Shown here one piece after another: positions 18,827 to 25,586 of a stretch of DNA of 64,000 bases. The stretch spans positions 310,001-374,000 of the forward strand of contig NZ_CP026730.1 of NCBI RefSeq assembly GCF_003369795.1, written 5' to 3'. How positions within the stretch are numbered: the first letter of the stretch is position 1; each line of letters opens with the position of its first letter. Both the position numbers and the translations under genes were made by a program. A model generated the notes under the pieces. It saw only the letters and a program-made list of their open reading frames with translations, was not told the DNA's origin and did not search any database. Source of the stretch: Streptomyces sp. CB09001. Lineage in GTDB: Bacteria; Actinomycetota; Actinomycetes; Streptomycetales; Streptomycetaceae.

Positions 18827-21388
18827 CTACTCCGTGGCGACGGCGCGCAGTACGTCCAGGCGGGATGCCCGCCGGGCCGGGCGCAGGCCCGCCAGGGCAC
18901 CGGCCCCGAGGCCGACCAGGGCCACCACCGCGAGCTGCACGGGCGGCACGGCGAAGGCGAAGGCGCTGTCCGAGGCACCGTCGGAGGCCGCCACCAGGAC
19001 CCAGCCGAGGAAGGCGCCGAGGCCGAGCCCGCCGACCGTGCCGAAGGCGGCGACCAGGACGGACTCCCAGCGGACCATGGCCCGCAGCTGGGCCCGGGTC
19101 TGGCCGACGGCGCGCAGCAGGCCGAGTTCGCGGGTGCGCTCGTGAATCGCCAGGGTGAGGGTGTTGGCGATGCCGAGCAGGGCGATGAGCACCGCGAGGG
19201 CGAGCAGCGCGTAGACGAGGGTCAGCATCATGTCGATGCCGCCCGCCGAGGACTCGGCGTACTCGTCGCGGGTCTGCACCTCCGGGTTGCCGTACTGGCC
19301 GGCGACCTTCTCGACCGCTGCCTTGCCGGCGTCCGCGCCCACTCCGTCCTCGAAGGCGACGGCGACCAGGGTGTCGGAGTCCTGGGTGCGGTGCGGGGCC
19401 CAGGCCGCGCGGGTGATGACGTAGTCGCCGGCGAGTTCGGACTGTCCGTAGACCGCGCGGACGGTGAAGGTCCCGCTCCGCCCGTCGGTGAAGGTGAGCC
19501 GCGTGGTGTCGCCGGTGGTCAGCCCCTGCTTGTCCGCCTCGCTCTCGGTGACCGCGATGCCGTCGGTGCCGAGGCCGTCCAGTGAGCCGTGGACGGCGCC
19601 CAGGTCGAAGGTGCGGTTCAGGGCGACCGGGTCGGTGACGGTCAACGCCCGTCCCTCGCCGTCCACTTTCGCGACGCCCCGGCCGAGGCCGACGGCGGTG
19701 TCCACCTCGGGCAGCTTCTGGACCGCTCCGGCCAGTCGCGGGCTGAGGCCGCTGCCGCCGGCGCCGAAGGAGGGCGCGCTGACGGCGACGTCGCCCGCGA
19801 AGGACCGGGAGACGGTCTGGTCCATGGTGGCCTTGAGCGAAGCCCCGAACACGGTGAACAGCGACACGACCGCCACGCCGATCATCAGCGCCCCGGCGGT
19901 GGCGGCCGTGCGCTTGGGGCTGCGCAGGGCGTTGCGCCGGGCGAGGACGCCGGTGACGCCGCGCAGCCGGTCCAGCGGGGCTCCGAGGACGCGTACGGCG
20001 GTGGCGGAGGCGACCGGGCCGAGCACCACGAAGGAGGCCAGGGCGAGGACGGCGCCCAGTCCCGCCAGCCACACCGACGGGGAGAGCAGGACCCCGACGA
20101 GTGTCACCGCGAGGGCGAGCGCGAGCAGCGCCGTGCCGGTGACCGCCCGCGCGCGGGAGGCGCCGGAGGTGTCGACGGCCGTCTCGCGCAGCGCGGCCAG
20201 GGGTGCGGTGCGGCCGGCCCGGGCGGCGGGCAGCAGGGCGGAGCCGAGGCAGACCACCACGCCGACGGCGAGCGGCAGCAGCAGCGACAGTGCGCTGATC
20301 ACCAGGGCTCCCTCGGGGAAGGGGAAGCCGATCGCCGGGAAGAGGGCCTGGAGTCCGGCCGCGATGCCGATGCCGCCCGCGAGCCCGGCGGCGGACGCGG
20401 TCACGGCCACGACGGCCGCCTCGACGAGGGTGGCGGCGGTGACTTGGCGGCGGGAGGCGCCGAGGGCGCGCAGCAGGGCGTTCTCGCGGGTGCGCTGGGC
20501 GACCACGATGGCGAAGGTGTTGTGGATCGAGAAGGTCGCGACGAGCAGGGCGATGCCGGAGAAGACGAGCAGGAAGGTCGTGAACAGGGTCAGGAACTGG
20601 CTGGAGATCATGTCGGTGTTCTCCGCGGCCGACTCCTGCCCCGTGATGGCCTCGACGCCGTCGGGCAGCGCGGGGGTCAGCCGGTCGACGAGTTCCCGCT
20701 GGCCGACGCCCGGCCCGGCCCGCACCTGGATGCTCGCCGCCTCGCCCGGCCGCGCCGTGAGGTACTTCTCGGCGTCGGCCCGGGTCATGCCGGTGAAGGT
20801 CACCTGGGCCATGCCGTCCTCGCCGCCGAAGGTCGCGAGACCCACGACGGTGACCTCGACGGGGTCGGGCGTGCGCAGAGTGGTGGTGTCGCCGATCGCC
20901 AGGCCGCCCTTCTCGGCGGCGCCGCGGTTGACGACGACCTCGCCGGACCTCTGCGGGGCGCGGCCCTCGGCGAGGCGGTACGGGTTCAGCTCCGGGTCGG
21001 TGATCCAGTTGCCGGCCAGGGTGGGCGGGCCCTGGCCGCCGATCGGGTCGCCGTTCGCGCCGACGAGCTGGCCCGCGCCCTGGATGCTGGGGGCGACGGC
21101 GGCGACGCCGGGCACCCGCTCGATCGTCCGGACCAGGTCGGTGCCGACCGGCTGCCGTACGCCCTGGCTCTCGCCCGGTGTCGTGATGGCGTCGGCGCTG
21201 CGGACCACGACGTCGGTGCCACTGGCGGCGTTGCCGAACATGGTGTCGAAGCTCGCGCGGAGCGTGTCGCCCATGACCAGGGTGCCGGCCAGGAAGGCGA
21301 CACCGAGGACCACGGCGAGGAACGTCCCGGCGAAGCGGCGTTTGTGGGCCCTGAGCGAGGAGACGCTCAGGCGGACGGAGGCGTTCAT
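18827..21388 (-). CDS. ABC transporter permease, FtsX/MacB type
   Basis: The 853-residue protein has two MacB/FtsX halves: an N-terminal segment (RRFAGTFLAVVLGVAFLAGT), a large external domain (about 45-250), three segments (about 260-400), further segments, a second external domain and three closing segments (about 725-845). The conserved FtsX block FSIHNTFAIVVAQRTRENALLR and its second copy LGIANTLTLAIHERTRELGL are clear. Such transporters use the transmembrane lever to export lipids, peptides or to act on envelope proteins. It overlaps its ATPase gene by 4 bases, which indicates coupled translation. Confidence 0.93.
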   Translation of the reverse strand: MNASVRLSVSSLRAHKRRFAGTFLAVVLGVAFLAGTLVMGDTLRASFDTMFGNAASGTDVVVRSADAITTPGESQGVRQPVGTDLVRTIERVPGVAAVAPSIQGAGQLVGANGDPIGGQGPPTLAGNWITDPELNPYRLAEGRAPQRSGEVVVNRGAAEKGGLAIGDTTTLRTPDPVEVTVVGLATFGGEDGMAQVTFTGMTRADAEKYLTARPGEAASIQVRAGPGVGQRELVDRLTPALPDGVEAITGQESAAENTDMISSQFLTLFTTFLLVFSGIALLVATFSIHNTFAIVVAQRTRENALLRALGASRRQVTAATLVEAAVVAVTASAAGLAGGIGIAAGLQALFPAIGFPFPEGALVISALSLLLPLAVGVVVCLGSALLPAARAGRTAPLAALRETAVDTSGASRARAVTGTALLALALAVTLVGVLLSPSVWLAGLGAVLALASFVVLGPVASATAVRVLGAPLDRLRGVTGVLARRNALRSPKRTAATAGALMIGVAVVSLFTVFGASLKATMDQTVSRSFAGDVAVSAPSFGAGGSGLSPRLAGAVQKLPEVDTAVGLGRGVAKVDGEGRALTVTDPVALNRTFDLGAVHGSLDGLGTDGIAVTESEADKQGLTTGDTTRLTFTDGRSGTFTVRAVYGQSELAGDYVITRAAWAPHRTQDSDTLVAVAFEDGVGADAGKAAVEKVAGQYGNPEVQTRDEYAESSAGGIDMMLTLVYALLALAVLIALLGIANTLTLAIHERTRELGLLRAVGQTRAQLRAMVRWESVLVAAFGTVGGLGLGAFLGWVLVAASDGASDSAFAFAVPPVQLAVVALVGLGAGALAGLRPARRASRLDVLRAVATE

Positions 21389-22134
21389 GAGGGCACCTCG
21401 AAGGCTTTCATCCGGTCCAGGACCTTGTCGGCGGTCGGCGCGTCCATGCGGTCGACGAGGCGTCCGTCGGCGAGGAAGACGACCTCGTCCGCGTGGGCGG
21501 CGGCGACGGGGTCGTGGGTGACCATGACGACCGTGCGGCCGGTCTGCCGGACGGTGCGGCCGAGGAGGCCCAGCACCTCGCCGCCGGAGCGGGAGTCGAG
21601 GTTGCCGGTGGGCTCGTCGGCGAAGACCACGTCCGGCTGTCCGGCGAAGGCGCGGGCCACGGCCACGCGCTGCTGCTGGCCGCCGGAGAGTTCGGCGGGC
21701 CGGTGGTGGAGGCGGTCGCGCAGTCCGACGACGTCGATCAGCGCGTCGACCCACTCGGTGTCGCCCCGGCGGCCGGCGAGGTCGAGGGGGAGGGTGATGT
21801 TCTCGGCGACGGTCAGCGTCGGCACCAGGTTGAAGGCCTGGAACACGAAGCCGACGCGGTCGCGGCGCAGCAGGGTGAGCCGGCGGTCGTCGAGGGTGCT
21901 CAGGTCGGTGTCGCCGATGCGGGCGGTGCCCGAGGTGAGCGTGTCGAGGCCGGCGGCGCAGTGCATGAGGGTGGACTTGCCGGAGCCGGAGGGCCCCATG
22001 ATGGCGGTGAAGCGGCCGGCCGGGAAGTCGACGCTGACGCCGTCGAGGGCGCGTACGGCGGTGTCGCCACCGCCGTACACCTTCACCGCGTCCACGACCC
22101 GGGCCGCGGCCCGGGTGGCGGTTGTCGTAGTCAT
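21385..22134 (-). CDS. ABC transporter ATP-binding protein, MacB/LolD type
   Basis: The 249-residue ATPase has Walker A GPSGSGKST (about 48-56), Q loop FVFQAFNLVPTLT, signature LSGGQQQRVAVARA, Walker B VVFADEPTGNLDS, and the H-loop VMVTHDPVAAAHAD. The EPTGNLDS ending is typical of the LolD/MacB subgroup that works with FtsX permeases. It lies between the SHOCT gene and the permease with 4-base overlaps at each side. Confidence 0.95.
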   Translation of the reverse strand: MTTTTATRAAARVVDAVKVYGGGDTAVRALDGVSVDFPAGRFTAIMGPSGSGKSTLMHCAAGLDTLTSGTARIGDTDLSTLDDRRLTLLRRDRVGFVFQAFNLVPTLTVAENITLPLDLAGRRGDTEWVDALIDVVGLRDRLHHRPAELSGGQQQRVAVARAFAGQPDVVFADEPTGNLDSRSGGEVLGLLGRTVRQTGRTVVMVTHDPVAAAHADEVVFLADGRLVDRMDAPTADKVLDRMKAFEVPS

Positions 22135-22415
22135 GCCGCACCGCCCTTTCCGGTCCGGCCGAACTGCTCGTCCAGTACGGACAGGCGGCGCCAGTACTCG
22201 TCCTCGTCGATCTCGCCGGAGGCGAAGCGGTGGCCGAGCACGGTGATGGGCGAGTTCTCCTCGACGGTCCTCGGCCGCCCGGGGCCGCGGCGCCCGCGCC
22301 ACACCGTGCGGCGCAGCAGGGTGATGCCGCCGCCGATGATCAGTGCCCAGATCAACGGGAAGAGCAGGATCCACGGGCCGGGCCCGCCGTCGCCGAACTG
22401 TGCCAGGGTCTCCAT
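22131..22415 (-). CDS. Small membrane protein with SHOCT motif
   Basis: The 94-residue protein has one membrane segment (WILLFPLIWALIIGGGITLL, about 15-34), a basic stretch, and a C-terminal SHOCT motif (LGHRFASGEIDEDEYWRRLS). SHOCT is a short oligomerisation or membrane-near module. The ATG at 22415 is chosen because GAGGAG precedes it by 9 bases; an in-frame TTG lies three codons earlier. Its ATGA overlap with the ATPase makes it the first gene of this three-gene operon. Confidence 0.85.
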   Translation of the reverse strand: METLAQFGDGGPGPWILLFPLIWALIIGGGITLLRRTVWRGRRGPGRPRTVEENSPITVLGHRFASGEIDEDEYWRRLSVLDEQFGRTGKGGAA

Positions 22416-22547
22416 GTCGTCCAACTCCTCGGTCGCGATGTCCCTTGTGTCGCTTCCGAGCCTCGCTCCGGGAGGGGGTCCCGGTCGTCGTACGGCCAGC
22501 GGCAGTGCGGGTACGACGCAGGGAGTACTCCGGCGGTCCGCGTCTGC

Positions 22548-22607: not shown

Positions 22608-22629
22608 CTGTAACTACTAGTATGTACAG
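22608..22629. promoter_or_regulatory. 22-bp palindrome, probable TetR operator
   Basis: Arms CTGTA (22608-22612) and TACAG (22625-22629) are placed symmetrically around the perfect core TACTAGTA (22615-22622); 9 of 11 base pairs match. It ends 7 bases before the tetR ATG, is AT-rich against its surroundings and has the size of a TetR dimer site. Autoregulation is the natural reading; it could also affect the divergent ABC operon. Confidence 0.75.
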
Positions 22630-22636
22630 TGCTTGC

Positions 22637-23209
22637 ATGAGCACCTCGGAACGACTGATCGAGTCCACCCGCGAGCTGTTGTGGGAGCGCGGGTACGTGG
22701 GCACCAGTCCCAAGGCGATCCTGGAGCGGGCCGAGGCCGGGCAGGGCAGCATGTACCACCACTTCAAGGGCAAGCCCGACCTCGCACTCGCCGCGATCCG
22801 GCGCACCGCCCAGGAGATGCGGGGCGTCGCCGGGGCCGTGCTCGCCGGTCCGGGGACACCGTACGAGCGCATCGCGGCGTATCTGCTGCGTGAGCGCGAC
22901 GTCCTGCGCGGGTGTCCGGTCGGGCGTCTGACGATGGACCCGGACGTGATCGCCGACGACGCCCTGCGCGCCCCCGTCGACGAGACCCTCGACTGGCTGC
23001 GCGAGGAGATCGCCCAGCTGGTCGAGGAGGGCAGGGAGCAGGGTGAGTTCGCACCCTGGCTGGACGGCGAGGAGATCGCGGCGGCGGTCGTCGCGACCGT
23101 GCAGGGAGGCTACGTCCTGGCCCGTGCGTCCGGTTCCCCCGCCGCCTTCGACGCGGGTGTCCGGGGCCTGCTCTCGCTGCTCGCACCGCCGAAGTCCCGC
23201 ACCCCGTGA
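22637..23209 (+). CDS. TetR family transcriptional regulator
   Basis: The 190-residue protein has the TetR HTH in residues about 5-52 (TSPKAILERAEAGQGSMYHH, then FKGKPDLALAAI), and an all-helical ligand domain with a TetR_C-like end (GEEIAAAVVATVQGGYVLAR). The ATG at 22637 has no ribosome site and lies just after the operator palindrome, so a short or missing leader is possible. Downstream are four enzyme genes starting 40 bases away; their control by this repressor is inferred. Confidence 0.92.
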   Translation: MSTSERLIESTRELLWERGYVGTSPKAILERAEAGQGSMYHHFKGKPDLALAAIRRTAQEMRGVAGAVLAGPGTPYERIAAYLLRERDVLRGCPVGRLTMDPDVIADDALRAPVDETLDWLREEIAQLVEEGREQGEFAPWLDGEEIAAAVVATVQGGYVLARASGSPAAFDAGVRGLLSLLAPPKSRTP

Positions 23210-23249
23210 CGGAGTTCGCAGCCACCGAAAGGTCCGGAGGATCACGACC

Positions 23250-23837
23250 GTGCATGCCATGCAGTACACCTTCACCCTGCCCGCCGACTACCCGATGGGC
23301 GTCATCAGGGAGCGGGTGGCCCGCACCGGGCATCTGCTGGACGACTGGCCGGGACTCGGGCTGAAGGCGTATCTGATCCGCGAGCGGGGCGAGGACGGTT
23401 CGCCGGTCAACCAGTACGCGCCGTTCTACCTGTGGCACACCGTGGAGGGCATGAACTCGTTCCTCTGGGAGGGCGCCTTCCAGCGGCCCACCGACGACTT
23501 CGGCAGGCCCGCGGTCCGGCAGTGGACGGGCCTGGCGTACGAGGAGGGAGGCACCGCCGGCGGCCCCGCGCGGCACGCGGTCCTGCGGCGGCACCGGGTG
23601 CCGGAGGGGGTGCCGCTGTCGGAGGTGGCGGCGGACGCGGTGCGGGAGACCGGGCGGCTGGCGGCCACCGGTGGGGCGCTGCTCGCCGCGGCGGTCGTCG
23701 ACACCGGGCGCTGGGAGCTGGTGCACTTCTCACTGCACGCGGGCGGCGCGCCCGACGGGGTGGAGGGCGAGGTCTTCAAGGTGCTGCACCTGTCCGCGCC
23801 GGGGCGGGCCCTGCTGCCGAGGGGGCGCCAGTGGTGA
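23250..23837 (+). CDS. DUF4865 family protein
   Basis: The 195-residue protein starts HAMQYTFTLPADYPMGVIRE and contains LGLKAYLIRERGEDGSPVNQ, YAPFYLWHTVEGMNSFLWEG and GWELVHFSL-type strands, as in DUF4865 proteins. The family resembles ferredoxin-like or heme/flavin-binding small enzymes in size, but its reaction is unknown. GTG 23250 is set by GGAGG at 23236-23240. The last 4 bases overlap the next gene. Confidence 0.85.
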   Translation: MHAMQYTFTLPADYPMGVIRERVARTGHLLDDWPGLGLKAYLIRERGEDGSPVNQYAPFYLWHTVEGMNSFLWEGAFQRPTDDFGRPAVRQWTGLAYEEGGTAGGPARHAVLRRHRVPEGVPLSEVAADAVRETGRLAATGGALLAAAVVDTGRWELVHFSLHAGGAPDGVEGEVFKVLHLSAPGRALLPRGRQW

Positions 23838-24742
23838 GCGCCGTCCGCACGGTCCTCGGGGACGTGCCCGGCGGGGAGTTGGGGGTGTGCGACGCCCACG
23901 ACCACCTGTTCTTCGCCAGCCCCCGGCTGCCCGGTGAGGAACTGCTCGACGCCGCGGCGGCACGGGCGGAGCTGGCCGCATTCCGGGCACGGGGCGGCGG
24001 CGCGGTGGTGCAGTGGACGCCGTACGGACTGGGCAGGCGGGCCGCCGATCTGCCGGCTCTGTCCCGGGACACCGGCGTCCACGTGGTGGCCGCCACGGGA
24101 CTGCACCAGGACGTCCACTACGACCAGGACACGCTCGCCGCGCTGCGGGGCCGGGCCGCCGAGGTCTTCGTGGCCGAACTGACCCGGGGCATCGGGACGT
24201 CGGGCGTCCGCGCCGGGCTGATCAAGGTGGCGGGCGGCTTCCACGCGCTCGACGGGCACGCGCGGTGGACCATGTCGGCGGCGGCCGAGGCGCACCACGC
24301 GACGGGGGCGCCGATCGCCGTGCACCTGGAGCTGGGCACCGGCGCCCTGGACGTCCTGGAGCTGCTGTGCGGCGAGTCGGGCGTCCCGCCGCACCGGGTG
24401 ATCCTCGGTCACCTCAACCGCTCCCCCGACCCCGTGACCCATCGGCAGGCCGCCGCGTCGGGGTGCTGGCTGGCCTTCGACGGACCGTCGCGGGCCCACC
24501 ACGCCACCGACTGGCGGATGCCGGACGCCGTGCGGGACCTCGCCGAGGCGGGTTTCGGCGACCGGCTGCTGCTCGGCGGCGACACGACCACGGCGTCCGC
24601 CCGGTCGGTCGACGGGGGCCCGGGGATGCCGTACCTGCTGCGCCGCGTGGCCCCCCGGCTCGCGCTCGCCGTGGGCGAGGAGCCGGTGCGGCGCGTCCTC
24701 ACCGAGAACCCGGCGCGGGCGTTCGCCGTCGACTGGCGCTGA
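23834..24742 (+). CDS. Phosphotriesterase-like amidohydrolase-superfamily enzyme
   Basis: The 302-residue protein keeps all metal ligands of the phosphotriesterase/lactonase family: the HxH in CDAHDHLFFA, the bridging Lys in GLIKVAGGF, His in AVHLELGTG, His in ILGHLNRSPD, and the Asp in LLLGGDTTT. These enzymes hydrolyse lactones or phosphoesters with two metal ions. The substrate is not evident. GTG 23834 overlaps the DUF4865 stop (GTGA) and has GAGGGGG at good distance; an in-frame GTG lies at 23831. Confidence 0.86.
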   Translation: MSAVRTVLGDVPGGELGVCDAHDHLFFASPRLPGEELLDAAAARAELAAFRARGGGAVVQWTPYGLGRRAADLPALSRDTGVHVVAATGLHQDVHYDQDTLAALRGRAAEVFVAELTRGIGTSGVRAGLIKVAGGFHALDGHARWTMSAAAEAHHATGAPIAVHLELGTGALDVLELLCGESGVPPHRVILGHLNRSPDPVTHRQAAASGCWLAFDGPSRAHHATDWRMPDAVRDLAEAGFGDRLLLGGDTTTASARSVDGGPGMPYLLRRVAPRLALAVGEEPVRRVLTENPARAFAVDWR

Positions 24743-24792
24743 CGCGCCCCTTCCACCGACTTGTCCCGGCCCCGTCCGACAGGAGATCACTC

Positions 24793-25194
24793 ATGCCCTT
24801 CGTCCGCATCGACGCGCACGGCTGCGGCACCGGCGACGACCGGCTCGACGCGCTCGGGCGGGCCGTGCACGATGCCCTGGTCGAGACGCTCGGCATCCCC
24901 CGCGACGACCGCTTCCAGGTCCTGACCGCGCACGATGCCGCCGCCCGCACCCTGCGCCACGACGACTACCTGGGGGTGCGCCGGGACGCGGGCATCGTGT
25001 TCGTGGCGATCACGCTGCGGGCCGGCCGGACGACCCGGCAGAAGGAGGCGCTGTACGCCCGGATCGCCCAACTCGCCGAGGAGTATGCGGGGACGGCCCC
25101 CCGCAACGTCTTCGTCACCCTGACCGAGAACACCTCCGCGGACTGGTCGCTCGGCAACGGGCTGGCGCAGTACGTAGGGTCGGGGTCATGCTGA
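24793..25194 (+). CDS. Tautomerase family protein
   Basis: The 133-residue protein starts MPFVRIDAHG, so Pro1 would be the catalytic base after Met removal, as in 4-oxalocrotonate tautomerase relatives. The two-motif length (about twice a 4-OT subunit) and the closing VTLTENTSADWSLGNGLAQY place it in the fused tautomerase group. AGGAG at 24781-24785 fits the ATG. The last 7 bases overlap the VOC gene. Confidence 0.88.
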   Translation: MPFVRIDAHGCGTGDDRLDALGRAVHDALVETLGIPRDDRFQVLTAHDAAARTLRHDDYLGVRRDAGIVFVAITLRAGRTTRQKEALYARIAQLAEEYAGTAPRNVFVTLTENTSADWSLGNGLAQYVGSGSC

Positions 25195-25586
25195 GACTCG
25201 GAATCCCCGTCGTCGGTGTCACGGACCTCCCCCGCGCGGTGGCGTTCTGGACGGCCGCGCTGCCGCTGGTGGCCGTGGAGGAATGGCAGAGCGAGACCTG
25301 GCGCACACTGGAGTACGCGGACGGCTCCGGGCGGGCCCTCGGCCTGCTGCGCAGTGACTCGCCGCCCGAACCCCGGCCCCGGCTGCACCTCGACCTGTTC
25401 ACGGACTCGGCCGAGGAGCAGCGGGCGGAGGTGCGGCGGCTGATCGGCCTCGGCGCGCGGGCCGTCGAGTGGGACCTGTACCCGCCCGACCCCGACTTCG
25501 TCGTCCTGGCCGACCCGGACGACAACATCTTCTGCGTCGTCGACCTCGGCCACGCCCCGAGCGGAAGCGACCGGCCCGCGCCCTGA
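25188..25586 (+). CDS. VOC (glyoxalase/dioxygenase-fold) family protein
   Basis: The 132-residue protein has one VOC module pair: GIPVVGVTDLPRAVAFWTAA, PRLHLDLFTDSAEEQRAEV and DFVVLADPDDNIFCVVDLG. The metal-ligand candidates are His in LHLDL and Glu/Asp near the end (FCVVDLG has Asp where Glu is usual), so a metal role is unsure. Translation is coupled to the tautomerase by a 7-base overlap, which argues for joint work on one pathway. Confidence 0.87.
   Translation: MLRLGIPVVGVTDLPRAVAFWTAALPLVAVEEWQSETWRTLEYADGSGRALGLLRSDSPPEPRPRLHLDLFTDSAEEQRAEVRRLIGLGARAVEWDLYPPDPDFVVLADPDDNIFCVVDLGHAPSGSDRPAP

Follow-up and report, generated by a model that had tools for sequence, protein, structure and literature searches.

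A probable TetR-controlled regulon for small-molecule response in Streptomyces, with the uncharacterised DUF4865 protein as proposed core enzyme

In the TetR-family repressor NemR of Escherichia coli, C106 is critical for the sensing of reactive chlorine, and C21 and C116 are tied to electrophile sensing (review, PMC5297802). A glyoxal-induced operon of Pseudomonas aeruginosa encodes both a protein of the antibiotic-biosynthesis-monooxygenase (ABM) type and a glyoxalase (PMC12274486). A published tautomerase from Acinetobacter is encoded in a gene context which differs from the one reported here. For DUF4865 (PF16157) no publication was found in the open-licence literature. Here we analysed a locus which combines a TetR regulator with a DUF4865 protein and several small enzymes. 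It is located within 64,000 nucleotides of the Streptomyces sp. CB09001 genome (termed the window) and has the following features:

22608-22629: predicted TetR operator, CTGTAACTACTAGTATGTACAG, 22 bp, 18 of 22 positions self-complementary, 7 bases before the ATG of tetR
22637-23209, + strand: tetR, 190 amino acids, Pfam TetR_N and TetR_C_13
23259-23837, + strand: DUF4865 gene, 192 amino acids, alternative GTG start at 23250, PF16157 at 226 bits
23834-24742, + strand: phosphotriesterase (PTE)-like gene, PF02126 at 143 bits, metal-dependent hydrolase, probably a lactonase
24793-25194, + strand: tautomerase gene, PF14552 (Tautomerase_2) and PF01361 (Tautomerase), similar to malonate semialdehyde decarboxylase (MSAD), with Pro1
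25188-25586, + strand: VOC gene, PF18029 (Glyoxalase_6) at 62 bits, clade-specific addition

The first-pass annotation had described five co-directional genes with overlaps of 4 and 7 bases behind a TetR palindrome. Open reading frames and Pfam assignments agree with this at the coordinates above; DUF4865 and the PTE-like gene share the 4 bases, tautomerase and VOC the 7 bases, and the palindrome is present ahead of tetR. Upstream, the opposite strand (18827-22424) encodes a short protein and what looks like an ABC transporter with its permease and ATPase; their starts face the tetR operator region.

How specific is the palindrome? A CTGTAACTACTAGTATGTACAG-type site occurs once in the 64-kb window, where shuffling predicts none, and once in the 7.8-Mb genome when as many as three mismatches are allowed. 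We then compared the nearest loci, i.e. the best 80 of 553 contig entries encoding DUF4865 relatives, picked by similarity. In 79 of the 80 regions upstream of tetR the 22-bp core was almost invariant, and the bases further out were near random. For a survey of the regulon, 150 genomes spread evenly over the genus Streptomyces were scanned genome-wide. Seventy-seven genomes had sites, and 75 had a TetR orthologue with an identity of at least about 55%. Site and orthologue were both present in 74 genomes, the site alone in three, the orthologue alone in one and neither in 72 (Fisher p ~1e-37, a value which overstates the evidence because related genomes are not independent). The reversed operator pattern, used as a control, yielded fewer than 10 matches in the same genomes.

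Ninety-seven of the 102 sites were at most 350 bp upstream of a member gene: tetR in 76 cases, the tautomerase in 17, DUF4865 in three and the PTE gene in one. All 17 stand-alone tautomerases of the 150 genomes carried the operator, 4 to 144 bases upstream, and each of the 29 close tautomerase homologues was either part of a TetR cluster or had the operator. The tautomerase of the window has no operator of its own; its transcript would start at the tetR promoter. Among nine unlinked PTE homologues in the 150 genomes eight lacked the site, thus the PTE family extends beyond the regulon. The TetR-DUF4865 pair has also been retained in genomes of another family within this order, with an operator bearing 1 to 3 mismatches. 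At the level of sequence, the same operator at linked and unlinked enzymes is strong evidence for a dedicated TetR regulon, the enzymes of which appear to have been freely recombined. Enzymes placed under one regulator, linked or not, are, as judged by the shared operator, the main new result of this analysis.

The five sites without a recognised gene were inspected as candidates for additional regulon members, and none was accepted. One is ahead of a split tetR, one is ahead of a tautomerase remnant, and the other three (genomes G006, G315 and G318) have no recognised member nearby, in genomes where no TetR orthologue reaches 60% identity. In the genome with the split tetR (G307) the first codons of the orthologue are at 814 kb beside a large-serine-recombinase-like gene, and the remainder is about 75 kb away (L191:3144-3300, L201). 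The parts share ATGTACCA at the break within the helix-turn-helix codons, which suggests that an integrative element was inserted inside tetR. In another genome (G218, C8:34791-34842) two operator copies with 0 and 2 mismatches are 34 bases apart ahead of tetR.

The composition of the clusters was variable around a constant pair. TetR-DUF4865 was present in 79 of the 80 nearest loci. Counting whole and partial genes, PTE was found in 73 of these loci and the tautomerase in 27; VOC was found in 16. Order and direction of the genes were unchanged throughout. In 7 of the 80 loci the PTE gene was broken up or had lost a part (an eighth ends at a contig edge), and others had no PTE gene, hence it is not essential. 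In the 150 genomes full-length DUF4865 was encoded in 68; within 3 kb of it were a TetR orthologue in 63 of the 68, a PTE gene in 39 and a tautomerase gene in eight. Leaving the cupin described below aside, the clusters consisted of TetR and DUF4865 (20), TetR, DUF4865 and PTE (35), TetR, DUF4865 and tautomerase (5), TetR and PTE (4) or TetR and tautomerase (3). A fixed linear pathway in which all steps are required does not accord with enzymes that replace one another so readily. This mosaic favours clearance or detoxification over a strict linear pathway, and it is still compatible with catabolism of a single compound class. In five genomes (G007, G010, G304, G331, G348) degraded DUF4865 fragments were located beside tetR orthologues; the core enzyme is thus sometimes lost and the repressor kept.

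An additional cupin gene was present in 22 of the 80 nearest loci, in the order tetR-cupin-DUF4865 where this was read. Its metal-ligand positions (HxH, Gln, His) were conserved in 25 of 25 sequences, and its nearest solved relative is 4bif, which we take to be a manganese cupin hydroxynitrile lyase of the GtHNL type. An unlinked PTE homologue in G291 (L156:2249-3645) directly follows a gene of the carboxymuconolactone-decarboxylase (CMD) family and is divergent from an ABATE/CGNR stress regulator; the TetR operator is absent. Here this kind of enzyme may serve a purpose of its own.

The VOC gene does not belong to the core. Rare co-occurrence in other genomes would have refuted the first-pass reading; in the 150 Streptomyces genomes tetR, DUF4865, PTE and tautomerase passed this test and VOC failed it, being linked only in the genome of the window (G000) and one close relative (G330). 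It was consequently rejected as a core member. VOC homologues with 73-83% identity are located elsewhere, and the gene is a late addition within the clade of the window. The dioxygenase function suggested for it found no support: a check of the sequence for a 2-His-1-carboxylate site identified H67 as the sole fully conserved His, and the first strand has no His, Glu or Gln as a ligand.

The DUF4865 protein matched PF16157 at 226 bits (cut-off 26.7) over profile positions 4-183 of 183. A sequence search gave no solved relative, and at E 0.01 PF16157 was the only family returned, the ABM family PF03992 not being matched. The AlphaFold model (pLDDT 92, pTM 0.88) matched the putative monooxygenases 3mcs (Z 17.1, rmsd 2.8 over 179 residues) and 3f44 (Z 15.1) over the whole length; sulfur oxygenase reductases and HmoB were matched more weakly. 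DUF4865 is therefore predicted, on the basis of this model, to be a fused two-domain alpha+beta barrel of the ABM type, with two ferredoxin-like domains forming the barrel. Conservation extends from Actinobacteria to Proteobacteria at K36, N51, Y53, P55, Y57, W59, F81, D148 and W152, among other positions. No His belongs to this set, which speaks against an iron site, haem or non-haem, of the kind in HmoB or the sulfur oxygenase reductases.

In the PTE-like protein all ligands of the binuclear metal site are kept as previously claimed (H22, H24, K131, H164, H193, D250), and they are almost invariant among relatives. The nearest solved relatives are 3pnz and 3msr, and judged by its sequence the enzyme is probably a lactonase. 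Identity as a phospho-furanose lactonase was rejected (115 bits vs 630 bits for the NF045706 cut-off). The Pro1 reported for the tautomerase was also confirmed, as a Pro adjoins the initiator Met in 27 of 27 sequences. FG41 malonate semialdehyde decarboxylase is its nearest solved relative (89 bits). P2, D39, R76 and R79 are conserved in Streptomyces homologues; in those from Proteobacteria only the Pro, the Asp and the second Arg are. They coincide with the MSAD positions Pro1, Asp37 and Arg73/Arg75 with a spacing that differs by one residue. By these sequence features the tautomerase is MSAD-like with intact active-site residues.

The TetR protein contains a single cysteine, C93, which aligns with C106 of NemR. 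C93 and R163 were invariant in 101 of 101 loci. Equivalents of Cys21 and Cys116 of NemR are absent, and R163 is at the position of Lys175. Because the cysteines needed for the electrophile response of NemR are missing and Arg replaces Lys175, C93 may be structural.

Outside of Streptomyces, DUF4865 was sought in a phylum-wide draw of 198 genomes, in which Streptomyces alone encoded it, and by plasmid searches, which revealed it in Proteobacteria and Cutibacterium. In Pantoea, Chimaeribacter and Agrobacterium the plasmid-borne DUF4865 gene comes immediately after a tautomerase or cupin gene, and a LysR gene is divergent; the Pantoea and Chimaeribacter clusters also contain a CMD-family gene. 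For the tautomerases beside DUF4865 that were checked, from Pantoea ananatis and Agrobacterium, malonate semialdehyde decarboxylases were again the closest match. Thus, the partnership of DUF4865 and tautomerase recurs under another regulator. On a Cutibacterium acnes plasmid (L133:2516-4367) DUF4865 is near an alpha/beta hydrolase gene, and neither TetR, LysR nor tautomerase is annotated at this locus.

How might the regulon operate? We propose, with about an even chance of being right, an autoregulated, inducible regulon for small-molecule clearance with DUF4865 at its core and a reactive oxo or lactone compound as substrate. TetR would bind to the 22-bp palindrome which overlaps its own promoter region and block the operon. 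A small reactive compound would free TetR from the operator, either as a bound ligand or by modification of Cys93. The derepressed enzymes would then clear the compound or its products. DUF4865 may act as a cofactor-independent oxygenase of the ABM type, an isomerase or a decarboxylase; the PTE-family enzyme may open a lactone or ester, and the MSAD-like tautomerase may decarboxylate, hydrate or tautomerise an oxo-acid, both either downstream or in parallel. A metal cupin would participate in many relatives. DNA binding by TetR, sensing by Cys93, the order of reactions and the reactive oxo or lactone nature of the substrate are what we infer here. The reductases and thiol enzymes that are typical of operons for electrophile response are absent from the regulon, which counts against this proposal.

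The enzymes may instead constitute a dedicated catabolic pathway, acting one after another on a single lactone or aromatic ring-cleavage product toward central metabolism, with an intermediate as the TetR ligand. The intact active sites of the lactonase-type and MSAD-like enzymes would fit, as would the CMD-family and cupin partners among relatives and a DUF4865-tautomerase pairing which spans phyla. However, cluster composition is a mosaic, and a transporter, dehydrogenase or CoA enzyme was not found within the regulon; on balance we consider such a pathway rather unlikely. Degradation of a butenolide or gamma-butyrolactone-type signal is more doubtful still. It would make TetR a relative of the autoregulator receptors and the PTE-like enzyme, which does resemble lactonases, the signal lactonase. 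Similarity of TetR to ScbR-type receptors is weak, with 64.3 bits vs 150 bits for the NCBIfam equivalog cut-off, so that ScbR-type identity was rejected; that to AvaR1 is also weak (36 bits). Further, the lactonase is dispensable whereas DUF4865 is the core, and a signal synthase gene was not recognised in the examined loci. A chance grouping of genes that have no function in common describes in part the VOC gene with its close homologues elsewhere. For tetR, DUF4865 and tautomerase it is refuted by the operator distribution, as the same operator precedes unlinked members; gene order is moreover conserved in 79 of the 80 nearest loci, and we give this reading virtually no credence.

We retain the clearance regulon as the preferred reading. 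The first-pass annotation is upheld in part, namely in the grouping of the genes with the exception of VOC; a small lactone or keto-acid may be the substrate or the TetR ligand. In a bolder version, which we advance tentatively and with less confidence than the clearance regulon itself, DUF4865 would represent a new class of cofactor-independent fused-barrel enzyme. With the MSAD-like tautomerase it would define an undescribed, widespread bacterial pathway, with TetR as its switch in Streptomycetales and LysR in Proteobacteria, for clearing a specific electrophilic oxo- or lactone metabolite.

We class the locus as a TetR-controlled regulon that probably responds to a small molecule and has an uncharacterised core enzyme. 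DUF4865 becomes tractable because the operator is short and unique, the repressor is dedicated, and the partner enzymes are a defined set which recurs in two phyla. The TetR ligand is expected to be the substrate or a close relative, so a reporter screen based on the operator could reveal the chemistry of DUF4865. A physiological setting is also supplied for MSAD-like tautomerases, which are mostly uncharacterised.

Among known systems the nemRA-gloA electrophile-response operon of E. coli likewise begins with the gene of an autorepressor from the TetR family and includes a VOC-fold enzyme. NemR and the present TetR are 23% identical over nearly the whole protein and share the Cys at the C106 position. 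In contrast, C21, C116 and K175 are not conserved, a NemA-type flavin reductase is lacking and the enzymes differ. The PTE-family phospho-furanose lactonases (3pnz, 3msr) are the nearest solved relatives of a PTE-like protein with a complete set of metal ligands, yet its score is far below the equivalog cut-off and the substrate cannot be deduced from the match. The malonate semialdehyde decarboxylases of P. pavonaceae and of Coryneform strain FG41 are similarly the nearest solved relatives of the tautomerase and share Pro1, the Asp and the two Arg residues. Differences are an Arg spacing one residue longer than in the P. pavonaceae enzyme, a Leu at the position of the wall residue Phe116 and no degradation-pathway partners. 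The GtHNL-type hydroxynitrile lyase is nearest to a cupin of the relatives, in which HxH, Gln and His are kept, whereas the operon of the window has no cupin. Finally, the arqI-gloA2 operon of P. aeruginosa encodes ArqI, an LsrG-like ABM protein with a single domain, whereas DUF4865 is predicted to be a fused two-domain protein, and VOC is not a core component of the DUF4865 system; the likeness is that of an ABM-type protein which is co-expressed with a VOC-fold glyoxalase (PMC12274486).
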